Source: Candidatus Polarisedimenticolia bacterium (GTDB taxonomy: Bacteria > Acidobacteriota > Polarisedimenticolia > Gp22-AA2). From it: a stretch of 60,253 nt of DNA. Under the pieces are notes generated by a model, which made no database searches, was not told where the DNA came from, and saw only the letters and a program-made list of their open reading frames with translations. This document shows positions 48,735-59,723 of this stretch, piece after piece; position 1 is the first letter of the stretch, and each line of letters opens with the position of its first letter. The stretch spans positions 1-60,253 of the forward strand of contig DASYUH010000084.1 in NCBI GenBank assembly GCA_036001465.1. The letters run 5' to 3'. The translations under genes were made by a program, and so were the position numbers.

Positions 48735-50033
48735 ATGATCCCGCGCTACTCCCGCCCCGAGATGACCCGCATCTGGGAGGACGAGCGCAAGTTCCAGCGC
48801 TGGCTCGACGTCGAGCTGGCGGTCTGCGACGCCCTCGCCGACCGCGGCCTGATCCCCAAGCAGGCGGCGGCCAACATCCGCGCCCGGGCGCGCTTCGACG
48901 TGAAGCGCGTCAAGGAGATCGAGGCGGCCGTCCAGCACGACGTCATCGCCTTCATCAACAACGTCGCGGAGAACGTCGGCCCGGACGCCTGGTACATCCA
49001 TCTCGGCCTCACCAGCAGCGACGTGGTCGATTCCGCCCAGGCCCTGCAGATGATCGAGGCGGCCGAGCTCCTGGTCAAGGGGCTGGAGGGGCTGGCGGCC
49101 GCCATCAAGAAGCGCGCCTTCGAGCACAAGGACTCTGTCATGGTCGGCCGGACGCACGGGGTGCACGCCGAGCCGATGACCTTCGGCCTGAAGCTGGCGC
49201 TCTGGCACAGCGAGGTGCGCCGCAGCATCGACCGCCTGGCGGCCGCCCGGCGGCGGGTGGCGGTCGGCAAGCTGTCGGGGGCCGTCGGCACCTTCGCGCA
49301 CATCGACCCCGACGTCGAGGCTGCGGCGCTCGGGTCCCTGGGGCTCGAGCCGGTGCCGATCGCCTCGCAGGTCGTGCAGCGCGACCGGCACGCCGAGTAC
49401 CTGAGCGCGCTGGCGATCGCCGCGACGTCGATCGAGAAGTTCGCCACCGAGATACGCCACCTGCAGCGCACCGAAGTGGGGGAGGTCGAGGAGCCGTTCG
49501 GCGCCGGACAGAAGGGCTCCTCCGCCATGCCGCACAAGCGGAACCCGATCGCCTGCGAGCAGATGAGCGGACTGGCGCGCATGGTGCGCGGCTACCTGCA
49601 CGTGGCGCTGGAGAACATCCCGCTGTGGCACGAGCGGGACATCTCGCACTCGTCCGCCGAGCGGATCATCCTGCCGGACGCCACCATCCTGCTCGACTAC
49701 ATGATCCACCGCTTCACGCGCGTGGTCTCCGGCATGGTGGTCCACCCCGAGGCGATGCGACGCAACCTCGATCAATCGGGCGGTCTCATCTTCTCGGGCA
49801 CGGTGCTGCTCGAGCTGGCCCGCAAGGGCGTGACGCGCGACGATGCCTACGGCTGGATCCAGCGGGCGGCGATGGCCGCCCGGGACGGCAAGGGGGACTT
49901 CAGGACGCTCCTCGGGAAGGACCCCGACATCGCCGCCCGGCTCAAGGCGGAGGACCTCGATCGGTGCTTCGATCTCAGGCACCACCTGCGCCACGTGGAC
50001 ACTCTGTTCAAGCGGGCGTTCGGGCAGGCGTAG
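48735..50033 (+). CDS. purB: Adenylosuccinate lyase
   Basis: 432 residues. It splits fumarate from SAICAR and adenylosuccinate in purine synthesis. The fumarase/aspartase-superfamily signature is GSSAMPHKRNP (near residue 258). HLGLTSSDVVDSAQALQM and VMVGRTHGVHAEPMTFGLKLALW carry the catalytic His and substrate contacts. The N-terminus IPRYSRPEMTRIWEDERKF is typical of the bacterial short form. Its 3' end runs directly into the next, poorly defined reading frame. Confidence 0.95.
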   Translation: MIPRYSRPEMTRIWEDERKFQRWLDVELAVCDALADRGLIPKQAAANIRARARFDVKRVKEIEAAVQHDVIAFINNVAENVGPDAWYIHLGLTSSDVVDSAQALQMIEAAELLVKGLEGLAAAIKKRAFEHKDSVMVGRTHGVHAEPMTFGLKLALWHSEVRRSIDRLAAARRRVAVGKLSGAVGTFAHIDPDVEAAALGSLGLEPVPIASQVVQRDRHAEYLSALAIAATSIEKFATEIRHLQRTEVGEVEEPFGAGQKGSSAMPHKRNPIACEQMSGLARMVRGYLHVALENIPLWHERDISHSSAERIILPDATILLDYMIHRFTRVVSGMVVHPEAMRRNLDQSGGLIFSGTVLLELARKGVTRDDAYGWIQRAAMAARDGKGDFRTLLGKDPDIAARLKAEDLDRCFDLRHHLRHVDTLFKRAFGQA

Positions 50034-50044
50034 CGCTTCTCCTG

Positions 50045-50749
50045 GTGCTCGCCGCCCCCGGCGGGAGCGCGGCATCGGGCGCCCAGTCGGGCGCTGCCGC
50101 GAGCCCCGCGACCGACCTGCGCGCCTTGGCCGGCGAGACCCTGTACGTCCTCAACCCCACCACGGTCCGCACCCGAGGCAGCGGCAACCTGAGCGTCGAT
50201 CTTTCTCGAGGCCAGTCGGTCGTCCTGGTCAGCCTGGGAGGTGACCGGGCGATCCTGGCGCCGGGCCCGGCCGACGCCACACTGCTGCGGTCCTACGGCG
50301 TCCGCAAACTGCCCCGCTACACGGCCACGACGGCGCAACTGGCGGCCGACTTCGTCACCACTCCGGCGTGGGGAAGGGCGCTCGAGGAAGGGGTGCGCCG
50401 GCTGCGCGACCGCTGGCCCGATCTCTCTGCCGACGTCGCCGGGAAGGTCTTCCTGGGCGAGCCGTTCGTCGGCATGACCGAAGAGCAGGCGGAGGAGGCG
50501 GTGGGGCGCCTGGTCCTGGTCCGGGGGCCGGCAGCCGGACAGGACGGTGCGGTCGCATGGACGGTCGGACGGCGCCCGCGCCCGGCGGAGCTGCGCGTCT
50601 ATACGGAGGCGCGGGAGCGCGGCGCCCGCGCCCGCAGCTTCGAGGAGTTCCTCGCCTCCCGCACGCGGGCGGTCCTGACTTTCAGGGGCGGGGTCCTCGT
50701 GGCGATCCAGTCCCCTCCCGGCCAGTCCCCGGGACTGAACTGGCCGTGA
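50045..50749 (+). CDS. Hypothetical exported protein, start uncertain
   Basis: 234 residues from the first NTG codon after purB. Upstream, the frame continues into purB and encodes a hydrophobic run (AGVALLLVLAA) that would complete a signal peptide, but no ATG, GTG or TTG precedes it. No clear ribosome site is visible, so translation may be coupled to purB termination. The body (TDLRALAGETLYVLNPTTVRTRG..., FLGEPFVGMTEEQAEEAVGRLVLV) matches no family I know. Codon bias holds to the stop. Confidence 0.5.
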   Translation: MLAAPGGSAASGAQSGAAASPATDLRALAGETLYVLNPTTVRTRGSGNLSVDLSRGQSVVLVSLGGDRAILAPGPADATLLRSYGVRKLPRYTATTAQLAADFVTTPAWGRALEEGVRRLRDRWPDLSADVAGKVFLGEPFVGMTEEQAEEAVGRLVLVRGPAAGQDGAVAWTVGRRPRPAELRVYTEARERGARARSFEEFLASRTRAVLTFRGGVLVAIQSPPGQSPGLNWP

Positions 50750-50788
50750 TGGAAGAGGCTGACCACGGAGGCGAACGCCCGGCGCCTG

Positions 50789-50828
50789 TCTTCACCGGAC
50801 GCGGGTTCGACTCCCGCCGCCTCCACCA
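50789..50828 (+). ncRNA. tmRNA 3'-terminal fragment (T-arm, acceptor strand, CCA)
   Basis: The bases ending at 50828 form a T-arm (GCGGG stem at 50801-50805, TTCGACT loop, CCCGC stem), an acceptor strand CGCCTCC, discriminator A and encoded CCA. GGACGCGGGTTCGACTCCCG is almost identical to the 3' end of proteobacterial tmRNA (ssrA). The tmRNA 5' end (GG-TTCGACGG D-loop), the tag ORF and the pseudoknots are not found upstream or downstream. GGAGGCG at 50767-50773 is exactly complementary to the acceptor strand, but only 27 bases separate it from the T-arm. It is best read as an att-type remnant or a decayed or rearranged tmRNA gene. Confidence 0.65.
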
Positions 50829-50981
50829 ATGCAAAGAATTCGAACCCGCTTGAAGCGTCGAGACCGCAGCTTCACCCAGCGTTTTGCTACCCCGCCCGTC
50901 CGCGATGAACTCGATGAAGTTGGAGACCGGTCTTCAGTCTCGAGCTCCGCTTCCTTCAGGCGGACCGCTTCCGGTGCCCGG

Positions 50982-51014
50982 GAAGAGGTCTTCGCGACCT
51001 CTTCTTCTTGCATT
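50982..51014 (+). terminator. Hairpin terminator
   Basis: GAAGAGGTC (50982-50990) pairs perfectly with GACCTCTTC (50996-51004) across a 5-base loop, followed by TTCTTGCATT. The 9-bp stem with a pyrimidine-rich tail fits an intrinsic terminator. Confidence 0.6.
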
Positions 51015-51040
51015 GACATCGCATCCAACTTCGGATAAAA
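51013..51040 (+). promoter_or_regulatory. Promoter for the BNR/Cys-rich secreted protein
   Basis: A perfect TTGACA (51013-51018) is followed after 16 bases by ATAAAA (51035-51040). It starts right after the terminator hairpin and about 97 bases before the gene's ATG. Confidence 0.55.
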
Positions 51041-51136: not shown

Positions 51137-54100
51137 ATGCGCAAATCGCCCAGCGCGGTCAGGACTTCCGCCCTGATCGCTGCCCTGGTCCTTGTTTGCT
51201 CCGCTTCCGGCCACCTCGCTCTCGGAGACGTCATCGAAGGGACCGACTGGTTGCCGATCGGCCCGGCGCCGCTCGCGAGCCCGGGACAGTTCTTCACCGG
51301 AGGGTGGGCCGGGCGTGCCTCGGCGATCGCAGCGAATCCCTTCGACTCTTCCGACGTCTGGGTCGGTACGGCGAACGGCGGCGTCTGGCACACGACCGAT
51401 CTCGGCACGACGTGGCGCGCGATGTCGGACCATGAGCGGTTCATGGCGATCGGCGCCCTGGCGCTGGCCGGCTGCGACGTGAACGGCTGCGACACCATCT
51501 ACGCCGGGACGGGCGAGAACGCGATCCGCCGCAACACCTACTACGGCGGCGGGCTGATGGTCGGCACGCTCGCGTCGGGGACGGTCCCGGGCGTCGACTG
51601 GGACCTGCGTGACGGCGGCCCGCTCTACGACTTCACGCACGGCTCGATCTTCAACGTCGTGCTCGACGAGGACACGTCGGGACAGAGCCAGGTGATCTAC
51701 ATCACGCTGTCGAGCGGCGTGACCGCCTCCGCCTCGGAGTCAACCGTCACCGCGCCCGAGCCCGCGCCCGGCGGCTACGGCATCTACAAGTCGAGCGACA
51801 ACGGCCAGACCTGGGCGAAGCTGACCGTCCCCGGCGCCGTGGGGGCGAAGCCCACGGATCTCGAGCTCGACCAGCAGAACGACATCCTGTACGCCGGCTT
51901 CGCCGAGCGCGGTGTTTTCAAGAGCAGCGACGGCGGCGCCAGCTGGTGTCCCTTCAGCGACGGCACCGGCGAGACGGTGTGCGCCGGCACGACCGGCGAC
52001 ATGCCGAGCGTCAACGGCGCCGGCTTCGATCACGTGGAGATCGCGCTCTACCGCGGCGACCCGCAGACGATCTACGTCACGCTCGGTCACTGTCCCGAGC
52101 CGCTCTTCGACGCCTGCACGCCGACGGTGATGCGCTCGACGAACGGCGGCCAGCTGTGGGATCTGAAGAGCGACGGCGCGGCCAACCCCGACGACACCAT
52201 CGGCTGCCCCGCCGTGTACTCGCGCTACACGCACGGCCTGGCCGTGCACCCGTCCGATCCCGACACCGTCTTCTTGGGCGGCCTGCACCTGTGCGCCTCG
52301 GACAACGGCGGGATCACGTTCAGCGACAGCGACACCAACACGATCGTCGGCACGACGCATCTTGATCACCGGCAGATCCTCTTCCACGCCACCGACGCCA
52401 ACGTCGCCTATGAGGTCTCGGACGGCGGATTCTCCTACTCGACCGACTCCGGATCGTCCTGGACACCGGCGAACGACGATCTGCAGATCACGCAGTTCCA
52501 GGGGATCGGCTCGTCCGCTCTCAGCGATCGCCTCCTCGGCGGGGCGCAGGACAACGGCGGCTCGCTATGGACCGGCACGAGGCAGTGGGACCAGCTCAAC
52601 TGCTGCGGCGACGGCGGCTACTCGATCATGGACGCCGACGACGCCATGTGGATGTACATCACCTCGAACACGAGCCACGAGCAGGGGAACAACGTCATCA
52701 AGACCTTCGAGCCGCTGCGCTCGACGGACGGCGGCACCGTCTGGGAGAACATCGCCGGGACAATCGCGCCGACGGAGCCGCGCGCCTTCTATCCGCCGTT
52801 CGTGCAGGGGCCCGGGCCGGACCATCGTCTCTATTTCGGCACCAACCGGCTCTACATGAGCGACAACGACGGCGACACCTGGACGGCGATCAGCCCCGTG
52901 CTGAGCAACTCGGCGCAGCCGGAGATCTACGGCGGCCAGGACGTGATCACGGCGATCGGCGTGGCGCCGGGCAACCAGGAGCGGATCTATCTCGGCTACT
53001 ACGGCGGCGATGTCTTCGTCACCGACAGCGCCTGCACCCAGCAGTCGTGCTGGCCGGAGAAGACGACCGGCCTCTCCGGCGAGCCGGTCACCTGGATCGC
53101 CGTCCACCCGACGCAGCAGGACACTGCCTACCTGACGCTCTCCGGCTTCTCATCGGGGATGCATACGTACAAGACGACGACCGGCGGCGGATCGTGGTCG
53201 AAGACGGCGTCCACCTCGGCCCTGAACGGCATTCCGGCGAACACCATCGCCATCGAGCCGGACGATCCGGGACGTCTGTGGCTGGGCACCGACCGCGGCG
53301 TGTTCAAGAGCGAGAACTCCGGCGGGAGCTGGTTCCGCGTCAACGCCGGCATGCCGAAGGAAGTGCCTGTCTTCCAGTTCTCGATCGATGACGATCGCGG
53401 CCGGATCTATGCCGCGACGCACGGCCGCTCCGCCTTCGTCCTCAGCCGCCCGTTCCTGAGCAACTACGAGGGGTGGGTGAACGGCATGATCTGGGACGTG
53501 CCGATGTACGGCCACAACTTCCTCGTCCCCGACGGGACGCCGTGCACCATGTACGTCATCCGGCACGACGGCTCGGTGTGCGCCTCCGGCACGGTCGACG
53601 CGAACGGCGGCAACATCTCCGTGGAGGACGGCGTCCTCGTCACCGACAAGAATTCGTGGTGGGAGGACCACGAGGTCGCCTGGGCCTGCCTGAACACGCC
53701 GCAGGGGGACAGCTGCGTCGGAGGCGCGGACATCTCCGAGTGCAACCAGGCGGGGAACCCGCTCAGCGCCGTGCTGGTGAACTGCGCAGGACAGGTGGGC
53801 TTCCACAACATCAACGGCTGCCCGACGCTCGCCGAGCCCCCCTCCGCGCTCCTGTCGCTGCTCGGCCTCGACGGTGACGCCGGCGCCCTGGCGTCACTTC
53901 CGCCGGGTGGCGCGCCCGCGTCCGAGTCGGCGACGACGCCGGCATCCGGCACCTCGCCGGCGGCCGGACTCGGCAAGTTCGCCGGAGGGACCGAGGCGGC
54001 GCCGGTTCTCGGATCGTTCGACGTGATCGCCAGCGTGCAGGTGGGAAACGGCAGCACCCGCTCGCTCTGCCGCATCAACGTGCCGTTCCAGGGAGCGAGC

Positions 54101-55762
54101 ACGGCCGGCAAGGTGCTGAGCGACGCGCGCGACGCGCTGAACGCCGATGCGACGTGCGCCGGCGCCACGGTGAGCGCCTTCGTCGACACGGGAAAGGACG
54201 TGGCGAAGGTGGAGGACGAGTTCCCGCTCCCCGCCACGCTCGGCCTGAACGTGCCGGGCGTCACCGGCAGCCAGGTCTTCCCCGCCGTGCACGCCGCGCC
54301 GGGGCAGACGACCGGCCTCTGCTTCCGCCTCGATCACCTCGGCACGGCGATCAACGGACAGGTGTCGATCGGCAAGATCCGCTTCGAGACCGTCGCCGGA
54401 GGCGCCGCCGGGGGCGACGTGACGATCGTCGAGGGATCGAGCCTCGGCGCCTGCGCCGTGCGGGTGCCGACCGCCGCGGGCGACACCGCGGGCATCATCG
54501 CGCAGAAGACGCAGAACGTCTTCCAGACGCAGGGGATCCCGGGACCGCACCCGCAATGCCCGGCGGCGCGCAATCCGCGCGACGTCGTGCGCCACGGCGA
54601 CGCGGTGGTCACCGTCCTCCCCTCCACGGTCCAGGTGTGCGTCAACGATCCGCGCGTCGGCTTCTACCTCGGGCCGGAGGAGATGTGCTTCTCCGATGCC
54701 GACTGCGCCAGCGTCAATCCGTGCGCGCGCAACTTCTGCGATCTGACGCGCAATCAGTGCCTCACGGTGTTCGAGCCGGACGGCACGATCTGCGAGGACA
54801 ACAACCCCTGCACGGAAGGGCGCACCTGCCAGGCGGGAACGTGCGGCAAGCCGATCGTGTGCAACGACAACGACCTGTGCACCGCCGATCGCTGCGAGCC
54901 CTCGACGGGGGTGTGCCTGTTCAAGCCGATCGTCTGCCTCGACGCCAATCCGTGCACGCGCGACACCTGCGATCCGCGCAACGGCGCCTGCCTCTTCACG
55001 CCGACGCCGGGAGCGACCTGCAACGACGGGAACCTGTGCACCCAGAGCGAGACCTGTGTCTCCGACACCGCCACGGGCGGGATCGTCTGCCGCGGCCAGC
55101 CGAAGTGCGCCGACGGGAACCTGTGCACCGTCGATCGCTGCGACGCGCGCACCGGCGTCTGCCTGAACGAGCCGCTCGACTGCGACGACGGCAACGCCTG
55201 CACGCGCGACTCGTGCAACGGCAACAATGGCGCCTGCCTCTACGCGCCGCTGACCGGCGCGACCTGCGACGACCGCAATGCCTGCACCGTGAACGACCAC
55301 TGCGTGCTCGACCCGGCGGGGCTGCCGGTTTGCGCCGGGGGCGGCGCCCGCGTTTGCGACGACGGCGTCGCCTGCACCATCGACTCGTGCAATCCGCTAT
55401 CGGGCTGCGTCGCCACGCCGGTGCAGCCGCAGGAAGTCGGCGACGCCCTGTTCTCCGACGCGCTCACCCTGAGATGGCTGGCGACGCCGGACGCCGCGCT
55501 CTGGAACACGTACCGCGGCACGATCCCGCGCACCCTGCTCGGCAGCCGCCTTCCCGCCTCGCCGTACGATCAGGCCTGCTTCGAGAGCGACAACGTCTTC
55601 GGCGACGGGCCCCTGGTGTGCACCGACCGCGGCATCCCGCCTCTCGGCACGGCGTGGTACTACCTGGTGACAGGAGAGAACTTCTGCGGCGAGAGCATCC
55701 TGCACCGCGCCTCGTCGGGATTCGTCGTGCCGAACACGCTCGCCTGTCCGACGCCGCCGTAA
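51137..55762 (+). CDS. Large secreted BNR/sortilin-like beta-propeller protein with Cys-rich repeats
   Basis: 1541 residues with an N-terminal signal peptide (SALIAALVLVCSASGHLALG). Residues about 40-780 contain repeated BNR/Asp-box motifs of the S-x-D-x-G-x-x-W type (SSDNGQTWAKL, SSDGGASW, STNGGQLW, STDSGSSW, SENSGGSW), the marker of sialidase- or VPS10-like beta-propellers; no sialidase catalytic residues are evident. Residues about 950-1160 hold a cohesin-like or unknown beta region. From about residue 1185 to 1440, seven or more Cys-rich units of the CDDGNACTRDSCNGNNGACLY type follow. A C-terminal Trp/Cys domain (GTAWYYLVTGENFCGES) closes it. No sorting tail is seen. It may be an extracellular adhesin or glycan binder. 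Confidence 0.88.
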   Translation: MRKSPSAVRTSALIAALVLVCSASGHLALGDVIEGTDWLPIGPAPLASPGQFFTGGWAGRASAIAANPFDSSDVWVGTANGGVWHTTDLGTTWRAMSDHERFMAIGALALAGCDVNGCDTIYAGTGENAIRRNTYYGGGLMVGTLASGTVPGVDWDLRDGGPLYDFTHGSIFNVVLDEDTSGQSQVIYITLSSGVTASASESTVTAPEPAPGGYGIYKSSDNGQTWAKLTVPGAVGAKPTDLELDQQNDILYAGFAERGVFKSSDGGASWCPFSDGTGETVCAGTTGDMPSVNGAGFDHVEIALYRGDPQTIYVTLGHCPEPLFDACTPTVMRSTNGGQLWDLKSDGAANPDDTIGCPAVYSRYTHGLAVHPSDPDTVFLGGLHLCASDNGGITFSDSDTNTIVGTTHLDHRQILFHATDANVAYEVSDGGFSYSTDSGSSWTPANDDLQITQFQGIGSSALSDRLLGGAQDNGGSLWTGTRQWDQLNCCGDGGYSIMDADDAMWMYITSNTSHEQGNNVIKTFEPLRSTDGGTVWENIAGTIAPTEPRAFYPPFVQGPGPDHRLYFGTNRLYMSDNDGDTWTAISPVLSNSAQPEIYGGQDVITAIGVAPGNQERIYLGYYGGDVFVTDSACTQQSCWPEKTTGLSGEPVTWIAVHPTQQDTAYLTLSGFSSGMHTYKTTTGGGSWSKTASTSALNGIPANTIAIEPDDPGRLWLGTDRGVFKSENSGGSWFRVNAGMPKEVPVFQFSIDDDRGRIYAATHGRSAFVLSRPFLSNYEGWVNGMIWDVPMYGHNFLVPDGTPCTMYVIRHDGSVCASGTVDANGGNISVEDGVLVTDKNSWWEDHEVAWACLNTPQGDSCVGGADISECNQAGNPLSAVLVNCAGQVGFHNINGCPTLAEPPSALLSLLGLDGDAGALASLPPGGAPASESATTPASGTSPAAGLGKFAGGTEAAPVLGSFDVIASVQVGNGSTRSLCRINVPFQGASTAGKVLSDARDALNADATCAGATVSAFVDTGKDVAKVEDEFPLPATLGLNVPGVTGSQVFPAVHAAPGQTTGLCFRLDHLGTAINGQVSIGKIRFETVAGGAAGGDVTIVEGSSLGACAVRVPTAAGDTAGIIAQKTQNVFQTQGIPGPHPQCPAARNPRDVVRHGDAVVTVLPSTVQVCVNDPRVGFYLGPEEMCFSDADCASVNPCARNFCDLTRNQCLTVFEPDGTICEDNNPCTEGRTCQAGTCGKPIVCNDNDLCTADRCEPSTGVCLFKPIVCLDANPCTRDTCDPRNGACLFTPTPGATCNDGNLCTQSETCVSDTATGGIVCRGQPKCADGNLCTVDRCDARTGVCLNEPLDCDDGNACTRDSCNGNNGACLYAPLTGATCDDRNACTVNDHCVLDPAGLPVCAGGGARVCDDGVACTIDSCNPLSGCVATPVQPQEVGDALFSDALTLRWLATPDAALWNTYRGTIPRTLLGSRLPASPYDQACFESDNVFGDGPLVCTDRGIPPLGTAWYYLVTGENFCGESILHRASSGFVVPNTLACPTPP

Positions 55763-57878: not shown

Positions 57879-59723
57879 ATGACGGACGAGAGCTCCACTC
57901 CAGCCGAGCCGAGCGGCCACGGCGCCACACCGGTGGCGCGAGCCGCCGGGGGCCGCGGCGGCCTCGCCGTGGTCCGCGAGCTCGTCCCCTATCTTCGCCC
58001 CTACGTCGGCCGCATCGTTCTCGCGCTCGGCCTCATCCTGGGCGCCAAGCTGGCGAACCTGCTCGTTCCTATCGCGCTCAAGAGGATCGTCGACATCCTC
58101 GGCGTCGCGCCGCGCCCGGCGCTGTTGCCGGTGGCGCTGCTCCTGGCCTACGGCGCCGCACGCATCGGCGTCTCGATGTTCACCGAGCTCCGGCAGGTCG
58201 TGTTCGCCCGGGTGATGGCGCGCGCCTCGCGGCAGATCACCGTCAAGGTCTTCCGCCACCTGCACGGGCTGAGCCTCAAATTTCATCTCGACCGGCGCAC
58301 GGGCGGCGTGGCCCGCGACGTCGAGCGCGGCAGCACGGCGATCTCCGATCTGCTCGATTGGACGCTGTACACCATCCTGCCGACCGCGCTGGAGGTCCTG
58401 CTGGTCACAGGCGTCGTGGTCTGGACCTGCGACTGGGGCTTCGCCCTGATCATCCTGGCCACGCTCACCGTCTACGGGACATGGACCTTTTCCGTCACGG
58501 AGTGGCGGAATCGGTTCTACCGGGCCGCCGTCGAGGCCGACACGCGCGCCAACGAGCGCGCCGTCGATTCACTCCTCAACTACGAGACCGTCAAGTACTT
58601 CAACAACGAAGCCCACGAGACCGCCCGCTACGACGAGAACCTCCGCCGCCTCGAGGACACGACGGTCATGTCGTACAAGAGCCTCGCGGTGCTCAACCTC
58701 GGCCAGACCGTCGTGGTCGCGGTCGGCGTCACCGCGATGATGTGGCGCGCCGCCGCCGGCGTCGTCGCCGGGACGCTGACCGTCGGCGACCTGGTGATGG
58801 TCAACGCCTATCTGCTGCAGCTCTCCTCGCCGCTGTTCTTCCTGGGGATGATGTACCGCGAGGTCACGCAGTCGCTGACGAACATGGAGCGGCTGTTCCG
58901 TCTTCTCGACGAGCGACCGGACATCCAGGACGCGCCCGGCGCCGTTCCCCTGGTCGCCCACCGTCCGCGGGTGCGCTTCGAGGAGGTGCGCTTCGGATAC
59001 GATCCGCGCCGGCACATACTGCAGGGGGTGGATTTCGAGATTCCCCCCGGCGGGACCGTCGCCGTCGTGGGCCACTCGGGCTCCGGCAAGTCGACTCTGG
59101 CGCGGCTGCTGTACCGCTTCTACGACGTCGACGGCGGGCACATCCGGATCGACGGCCGCGATGTGCGCGAGCTGACGCAGGCCTCGGTGCGCGCCGCCAT
59201 CGGCATCGTCCCCCAGGACACCGTCCTCTTCAACGACACGATCTTCTACAACATCCAGTACGGCCGGACGGACGCGACCCGGGACGAGGTCGAGGCCGTC
59301 GCCCGCTCCGCCCACATCCACGACTTCGTCGTCGCGCTTCCGGACGGCTACGAGACGCAGGTGGGGGAGCGTGGCCTGAAGCTTTCCGGCGGCGAGAAGC
59401 AGCGCGTGGCGATCGCCCGCGCGCTCCTGAAGAATCCGGCCATGCTGATCTTCGACGAGGCCACCTCGGCGCTGGACTCCGAGTCGGAGAAGGCGATCCA
59501 GGCGGAGCTGGACCGCATCCAGATCGGGCGCACGACGCTGGTGATCGCGCACCGGTTGTCGACGGTGATGGGCGCCGACCAGATCCTGGTCATGGACGCC
59601 GGCCGCATCGTCGAGCGCGGCAGCCACGCCGAGCTGCTCGGCGCCGAAGGCCACTACGCCCGCATGTGGAAGCTGCAGCAACAGGAGCGCGCCGCCGGCA
59701 TCGAGCCTCTGGTGCGCCGGTAG
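57879..59723 (+). CDS. Atm1-type ABC exporter (fused permease and ATPase)
   Basis: 614 residues, a half-transporter that should dimerise. Six membrane spans occupy about residues 40-330. VDSLLNYETVKYFNNEAHE (about 235-253) is the hallmark of the Atm1/HMT1 branch, which exports glutathione-linked or sulfur compounds for metal and iron-sulfur homeostasis. The ATPase has Walker A GHSGSGKSTLARL, Q-loop IVPQDTVLFNDT, signature LSGGEKQR, Walker B MLIFDEATS and the H-loop IAHRLSTV, all intact. It stands alone behind a hairpin; no partner enzyme is adjacent. Confidence 0.92.
   Translation: MTDESSTPAEPSGHGATPVARAAGGRGGLAVVRELVPYLRPYVGRIVLALGLILGAKLANLLVPIALKRIVDILGVAPRPALLPVALLLAYGAARIGVSMFTELRQVVFARVMARASRQITVKVFRHLHGLSLKFHLDRRTGGVARDVERGSTAISDLLDWTLYTILPTALEVLLVTGVVVWTCDWGFALIILATLTVYGTWTFSVTEWRNRFYRAAVEADTRANERAVDSLLNYETVKYFNNEAHETARYDENLRRLEDTTVMSYKSLAVLNLGQTVVVAVGVTAMMWRAAAGVVAGTLTVGDLVMVNAYLLQLSSPLFFLGMMYREVTQSLTNMERLFRLLDERPDIQDAPGAVPLVAHRPRVRFEEVRFGYDPRRHILQGVDFEIPPGGTVAVVGHSGSGKSTLARLLYRFYDVDGGHIRIDGRDVRELTQASVRAAIGIVPQDTVLFNDTIFYNIQYGRTDATRDEVEAVARSAHIHDFVVALPDGYETQVGERGLKLSGGEKQRVAIARALLKNPAMLIFDEATSALDSESEKAIQAELDRIQIGRTTLVIAHRLSTVMGADQILVMDAGRIVERGSHAELLGAEGHYARMWKLQQQERAAGIEPLVRR

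Follow-up and report, generated by a model that had tools for sequence, protein, structure and literature searches.

Why does the 3′ end of ssrA, the tmRNA gene, lie by itself in this DNA from a Candidatus Polarisedimenticolia bacterium (genome G000; the whole stretch analysed, 60,253 nucleotides, is referred to as the window)? The 35 nt at 50796-50830 agree at every position (35/35) with the 3′ end of the one intact ssrA in the same genome, on contig C32 (G000:C32:246777-247123), and positions 50796-50828 are the 33-nt portion located inside the gene proper. No further part of a tmRNA accompanies this tail in the window, in which ARAGORN called neither a tRNA nor a tmRNA. The preliminary description had reported an ssrA-like 3′ end with encoded CCA, the remainder of the molecule being absent, and this is confirmed; the search that it proposed for the intact gene located it at one end of a series of tandem ssrA-end copies, with a tyrosine integrase beside one of them. 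The Rfam tmRNA model RF00023 matches the locus with 47.4 bits (gathering score 47); since this score is reached with 62 aligned nt bridging a 320-nt gap, it is a match to the 3′ end and not a tmRNA. The window shares with this family the last 33 nt, including CCA, but neither the tag reading frame nor the pseudoknots nor the 5′ part. The model of permuted, two-piece tmRNA (RF04321) gave 16.6 bits (E 0.22), under the gathering score of 47. Thus, the covariance models place neither a complete tmRNA, with 5′ and 3′ tRNA-like parts and a tag reading frame, nor a permuted one at the locus. It is highly probable, in our view, that the tail belongs to an attL, now decayed, of a small integrative element whose large serine recombinase (LSR) targeted the ends of tmRNA and tRNA genes.

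A serine recombinase remnant joined to the tail

Table 1. Features of the locus (window coordinates).
Feature	Position	Strand	Basis or remark
purB, adenylosuccinate lyase, upstream host gene	48735..50033	+	Pfam Lyase_1, ADSL_C
gene X, conserved behind purB; start approximate	50030..50749	+	purS next in congeners G003, G004
decayed continuation of the ssrA 3′ half, with GGAGGCG 50767-50773	50761..50795	+	position-specific score
remnant, C-terminal part of an LSR	50790..51010	-	HMM E = 3.1e-12 and 6e-4; tblastn
ssrA 3′ end (T-arm, acceptor 3′ strand, CCA)	50796..50830	+	matches own intact ssrA exactly
43-bp attL-like junction	50804..50846	+	layout shared with other loci
element-derived arm ATGCAAAGAATTCGAACC	50829..50846	+	antisense to recombinase codons GSNSLH

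The tail is directly adjoined by the remnant of an LSR gene, detected with a profile built from ten homologues and the query, for which the reversed window gave a best E of 1.9. This remnant is frameshifted and internally deleted: model positions 396-423 lie in one frame and 425-448 in the next, about 95 codons are then missing, and positions 543-563 overlap the ssrA end. The 543-563 segment overlaps the att site and is not independent of it, whereas the 396-448 part is. The window keeps the C-terminal part only (E = 3.1e-12), Resolvase, Recombinase and Zn-ribbon domains all being present in intact homologues. An orthologous relic in the congener G002 covers recombinase positions 513-563 (E = 4e-13). 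As a point against the attL reading, the genome itself and its four congeners have no intact LSR of this family. Two open reading frames, 50599-50829(-) and 50792-51028(-), were rejected as real proteins, neither having a Pfam match; the latter was reread as the recombinase remnant. The earlier suggestion of an old island boundary stands insofar as a recombinase remnant is still attached to the tail, but the integrase is of the serine and not the tyrosine type; no tyrosine integrase (Phage_integrase match), by which a tyrosine-integrase island would be recognized, was found on this contig.

The junction itself has the anatomy of an attL, in which a tDNA half-site is joined to an element half-site beside an LSR gene. 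Here, a 19-nt attB half-site GGTTCGACTCCCGCCGCCT (50804-50822), running from the ssrA T-arm to the acceptor, is followed by a 24-nt attP half-site CCACCAATGCAAAGAATTCGAACC (50823-50846), the bases directly 3′ of CCA being (AT)GCAAAGAATTCGAACC. The 43 bp are identical to the G002 sequence at 40 positions (40/43). An attR with an inverted element arm was not found in the window, which counts against the scar reading. The LSR itself probably made the junction. Small LSR elements of this kind use the 3′ terminus of ssrA or of tRNA-Ala(CGC) as their insertion target; the LSR gene is antisense and points at the target, and its last codons overlap the target's 3′ end. In the window, the target would have been a stray ssrA 3′ tail, some 70 nt long, located past purB and gene X; that it is not the working ssrA speaks against reading the locus as a scar. 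The element would later have lost nearly all of its DNA, so that only the att junction and a part of the LSR gene, with its frameshift and internal deletion, remained. Between G000 and G002, divergence is 1/33 in the core (50796-50828) and 7/29 in the preceding 29 nt (P about 0.001). The low core divergence is not predicted for a passive relic; it might reflect gene conversion among copies, re-use as an att site, or selection.

The same junction in other bacteria

A pattern derived from the junction, TCCACCANNGCAANGAATTCGAACC, has exact matches in 22 genomes (Acidobacteriota, Myxococcota, Krumholzibacteriota, Methylomirabilota and others), for about 0.03 matches expected by chance in 257 Gb, a rough estimate that assumes 22 fixed bases and equal base composition. 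In 11 of the 22 the pattern directly follows an ARAGORN-intact tmRNA, and in 2 it follows a tRNA-Ala(CGC). In other bacteria, intact homologues of the recombinase terminate over the 3′ end of an ssrA or tRNA-Ala(CGC) gene and share the bases CCACCANNGCAAAGAATTCGAACC with the window. At locus L113, for instance, the pattern coincides with the end, read antisense, of an LSR gene for 566 aa; the protein has Resolvase, Recombinase and Zn-ribbon domains, and its C-terminus GSNSLRWWRRWDSNPRP is encoded over the tmRNA 3′ end. Altogether, 20-odd loci of other bacteria have the 19+24 layout of the window, and most of them are at an intact ssrA or tRNA-Ala. The arm also follows tRNA-Ala(CGC) at L119, which encodes a recombinase of the family, and at L122, which keeps only a C-terminal piece of one; the targets of the family therefore include more than one tDNA. 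The junction pattern had no match in viral contigs, and a viral origin was rejected.

Both element ends are present at L120, 2.76 kb apart, and at L130 the second end (attR) was found with its inverted element arm, partly masked. These two loci (L120:110-2890 and L130:8263-10960) appear to be complete serine-recombinase elements of about 2.7 kb, with one extra gene between the recombinase and the far end: an unrelated ORF in L120 and, in L130, a MerR-like protein that is possibly an excision factor. From the L120 ends we rebuilt a 48-bp attP with inverted repeats, GGTTCGAATTCTTTGCGTCCGGGT|CCACCATCGCAAAGAATTCGAACC, and a 38-bp attB, GGTTCGATTCCCGCCGCCT|CCACCATTCCTTCGCTTCG. An intact 48-bp inverted-repeat attP also occurs in L127 (near 3080) and a near-intact one in L109 (near 283); both sites lie inside chromosomal contigs, beside recombinase-gene ends, and represent either tandem elements or an assembled excised form.

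Measured from the centre of the site, the T-loop motif GGTTCGANT ends at 24 bp in attP and at 19 bp in attB. In serine integrases, the zinc-domain motif is shifted 5 bp inward in attB with respect to attP (PMC3783163). The spacing of GGTTCGANT matches this shift, and we infer that the recombinase reads the T-loop, which would then be its recognition motif. By the symmetry of the sites, crossover would take place at the TC of CGCC-TC-CACCA.

Origin of the tail and competing readings

An attL owes its left half to the target, which means that roughly 70 nt of ssrA tail lay behind gene X before the element inserted. In G002, the only congener keeping the locus, the same 33-nt core likewise follows purB and gene X, an orthologous position, and the junction is therefore old. 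The arms of G000 and G002, ATGCAAAG and ACGCAATG, each match different lineages, and one shared insertion is thus not distinguishable from two. The gene order purB-X-purS-purQ of G003 and G004 is broken in G000 between X and purS (window 50749; purS at G000:C46:46521); in G001, gene X likewise continues into other DNA. An island end on the purS side was rejected, as purS lies on C46 with no ssrA end before it. The window's ABC transporter (57879-59723) was considered as a possible native flank on the right of ssrA; its orthologue in the relative G006 lies about 4 kb from the ssrA series, inverted and sharing no other neighbour. Between the junction and this transporter, the window encodes a secreted-looking protein of 1541 aa (51137-55762) with sortilin-like repeats and cysteine-rich Dicty_CTDC repeats.

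For how the ssrA tail first reached its place, the likeliest course seems to be a two-step history, preferred though unproven, in which the displaced ssrA end of an older island was followed by the serine-recombinase element. We give about an even chance to the precise version in which the tail is the displaced attR of a tyrosine-integrase island, an origin of the target that is compatible with the scar reading. Apart from the window copy, at least nine ssrA ends occur in G000; several stand in tandem behind ssrA (three behind the real gene), and one has a tyrosine integrase beside it; the copy at C48:7893 has about 65 nt of extra ssrA similarity. In G039, moreover, an ssrA end that is not at ssrA carries an intact LSR of this family, and the upstream side of that end is like the arms of island-type copies, unlike ssrA; LSRs thus do insert into copies of this type. 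What precedes the window copy, however, is host DNA, purB and gene X, and not island DNA, and the contig has yielded no tyrosine integrase.

The copies in G000 are located at C32:206026-247123, C48:7791-27262, C114:17145-20811 and C109:26774, and several share the upstream arm GTCGCGCGCCATCAGCCAGTTAGCG and the GAGCACTCCAGAGCACAACGAATTGAC motif. Relatives likewise carry tandem ssrA-end copies 2-8 kb apart (L086, G006:C150; L087, G022:C12; L088, G015:C5; L089, G001:C45), which suggests stacked small integrative elements.

It is possible, with a lower probability, that a complete ssrA, second or original, once stood behind purB-X; with the element already in place at its 3′ end, a deletion or rearrangement would then have removed most of it. 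Similarity to ssrA does reach at least 35 nt upstream of the core, purS (the neighbour of X in G003 and G004) is on another contig in this genome, and the copy at C150:12116 of G006 contains pieces of a second, broken ssrA; yet no relative examined has an ssrA behind purB.

A different reading altogether would make the locus a gene. The preliminary description had noted that GGAGGCG (50767-50773) is complementary to 50818-50824 and had proposed a tRNA-like small RNA. Both sequences are present and the complement is exact, but an exact complement 20-60 nt upstream is found for 1.6% of the window's GC-rich 7-mers, which makes the partner by itself weak evidence. Scored against the ssrA 3′ half, the 35 nt upstream of the core exceed 99.97% of the background, and the G002 orthologue exceeds all 40,116 background windows. 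In the ungapped alignment, GGAGGCG stands opposite GCACGTA in an internal stretch of ssrA and GTACGCG in G002; thus, it is a piece of the decayed 3′ half, with no homology to the tmRNA 5′ end. The scan covered 73 distinct ssrA ends, and the window alone has the exact 5′ partner (0/72 other copies or ssrA genes).

On this reading, a 62-nt tRNA-like RNA (acceptor stem, one arm, T-arm and CCA) would be transcribed behind purB-X and maintained by selection; an ancestor common to the two species would have exapted the tail and the 29 nt upstream of it from the scar of a mobile element and rebuilt the acceptor stem. The window folds at -28.5 kcal/mol (z -2.1), and 6/7 acceptor pairs can still form in G002, one of them with both bases replaced (G-C to U-G), although two sequences are too few to settle co-variation of the stem. 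In G002, however, the 5′ arm differs at 2/7 bases, one pair is broken and the fold (z -0.7) is no better than shuffles, and the consensus search revealed neither a sigma-70-like promoter nor a terminator at the locus. The unusual conservation of the 33-nt core would fit an RNA under selection, but an att site alone would predict conservation of the T-arm. Given also that the 5′ arm derives from an internal ssrA stretch and occurs in no other copy, we regard such an RNA, exapted or otherwise, as very unlikely, and the small RNA first proposed is not supported: the tail is very probably not a working RNA gene. A chance likeness to the tmRNA 3′ end, which could be argued from an Rfam score barely exceeding the gathering score, is refuted by the 35-nt identity to the genome's own ssrA and by the tail that G002 keeps at the same place, and is further opposed by the recombinase remnant joined to the tail.

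Relation to known systems

Read as the decayed attL of an LSR element, the odd tmRNA fragment becomes a dated scar, and it brings to light small serine-recombinase elements of one family which, across several phyla, target the ends of ssrA and tRNA-Ala. Scars of such elements can be called tmRNA genes by the Rfam tmRNA model. If the T-loop is the recognition motif, the choice of targets would be simply explained and the 5-bp-shift model of attB and attP would become testable. In serine integrases like A118/LI integrase (PMC3783163), attP is likewise longer than attB and the zinc-domain motif lies 5 bp nearer to the centre in attB, but the motif of the window family would be the universal T-loop sequence of tRNA-type genes.

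Targeting of tDNAs by serine recombinases was long thought absent: the Islander study (2014) named tyrosine integrases as the only ones known to target them (PMC4383910). As in those islands, a displaced 3′ fragment of a tRNA or tmRNA gene marks the end of the element, whereas the remnant in the window is of the serine family. The exception found in the literature, and by its description the nearest system to the window element, is DsiB of Dehalococcoides, the serine recombinase of ssrA-specific islands, the attL of which is embedded in its gene (PMC3146451). Both systems involve an LSR (DsiB has 540 aa and is CcrB-like; the L113 homologue has CcrB as its best NCBIfam match, far under the cut-off), an ssrA target and an integrase gene adjoining or overlapping attL, and in both ssrA-end repeats are stacked downstream of ssrA. 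They differ in that the DsiB crossover was placed in the T-loop, with 20-bp repeats, whereas that of the window family would lie in the acceptor stem, with a shared repeat of 7-8 bp; in that the DsiB islands comprise a six-gene module and the complete elements of the window family only about 2.7 kb; and in that the copy in the window is a relic and does not lie at ssrA.
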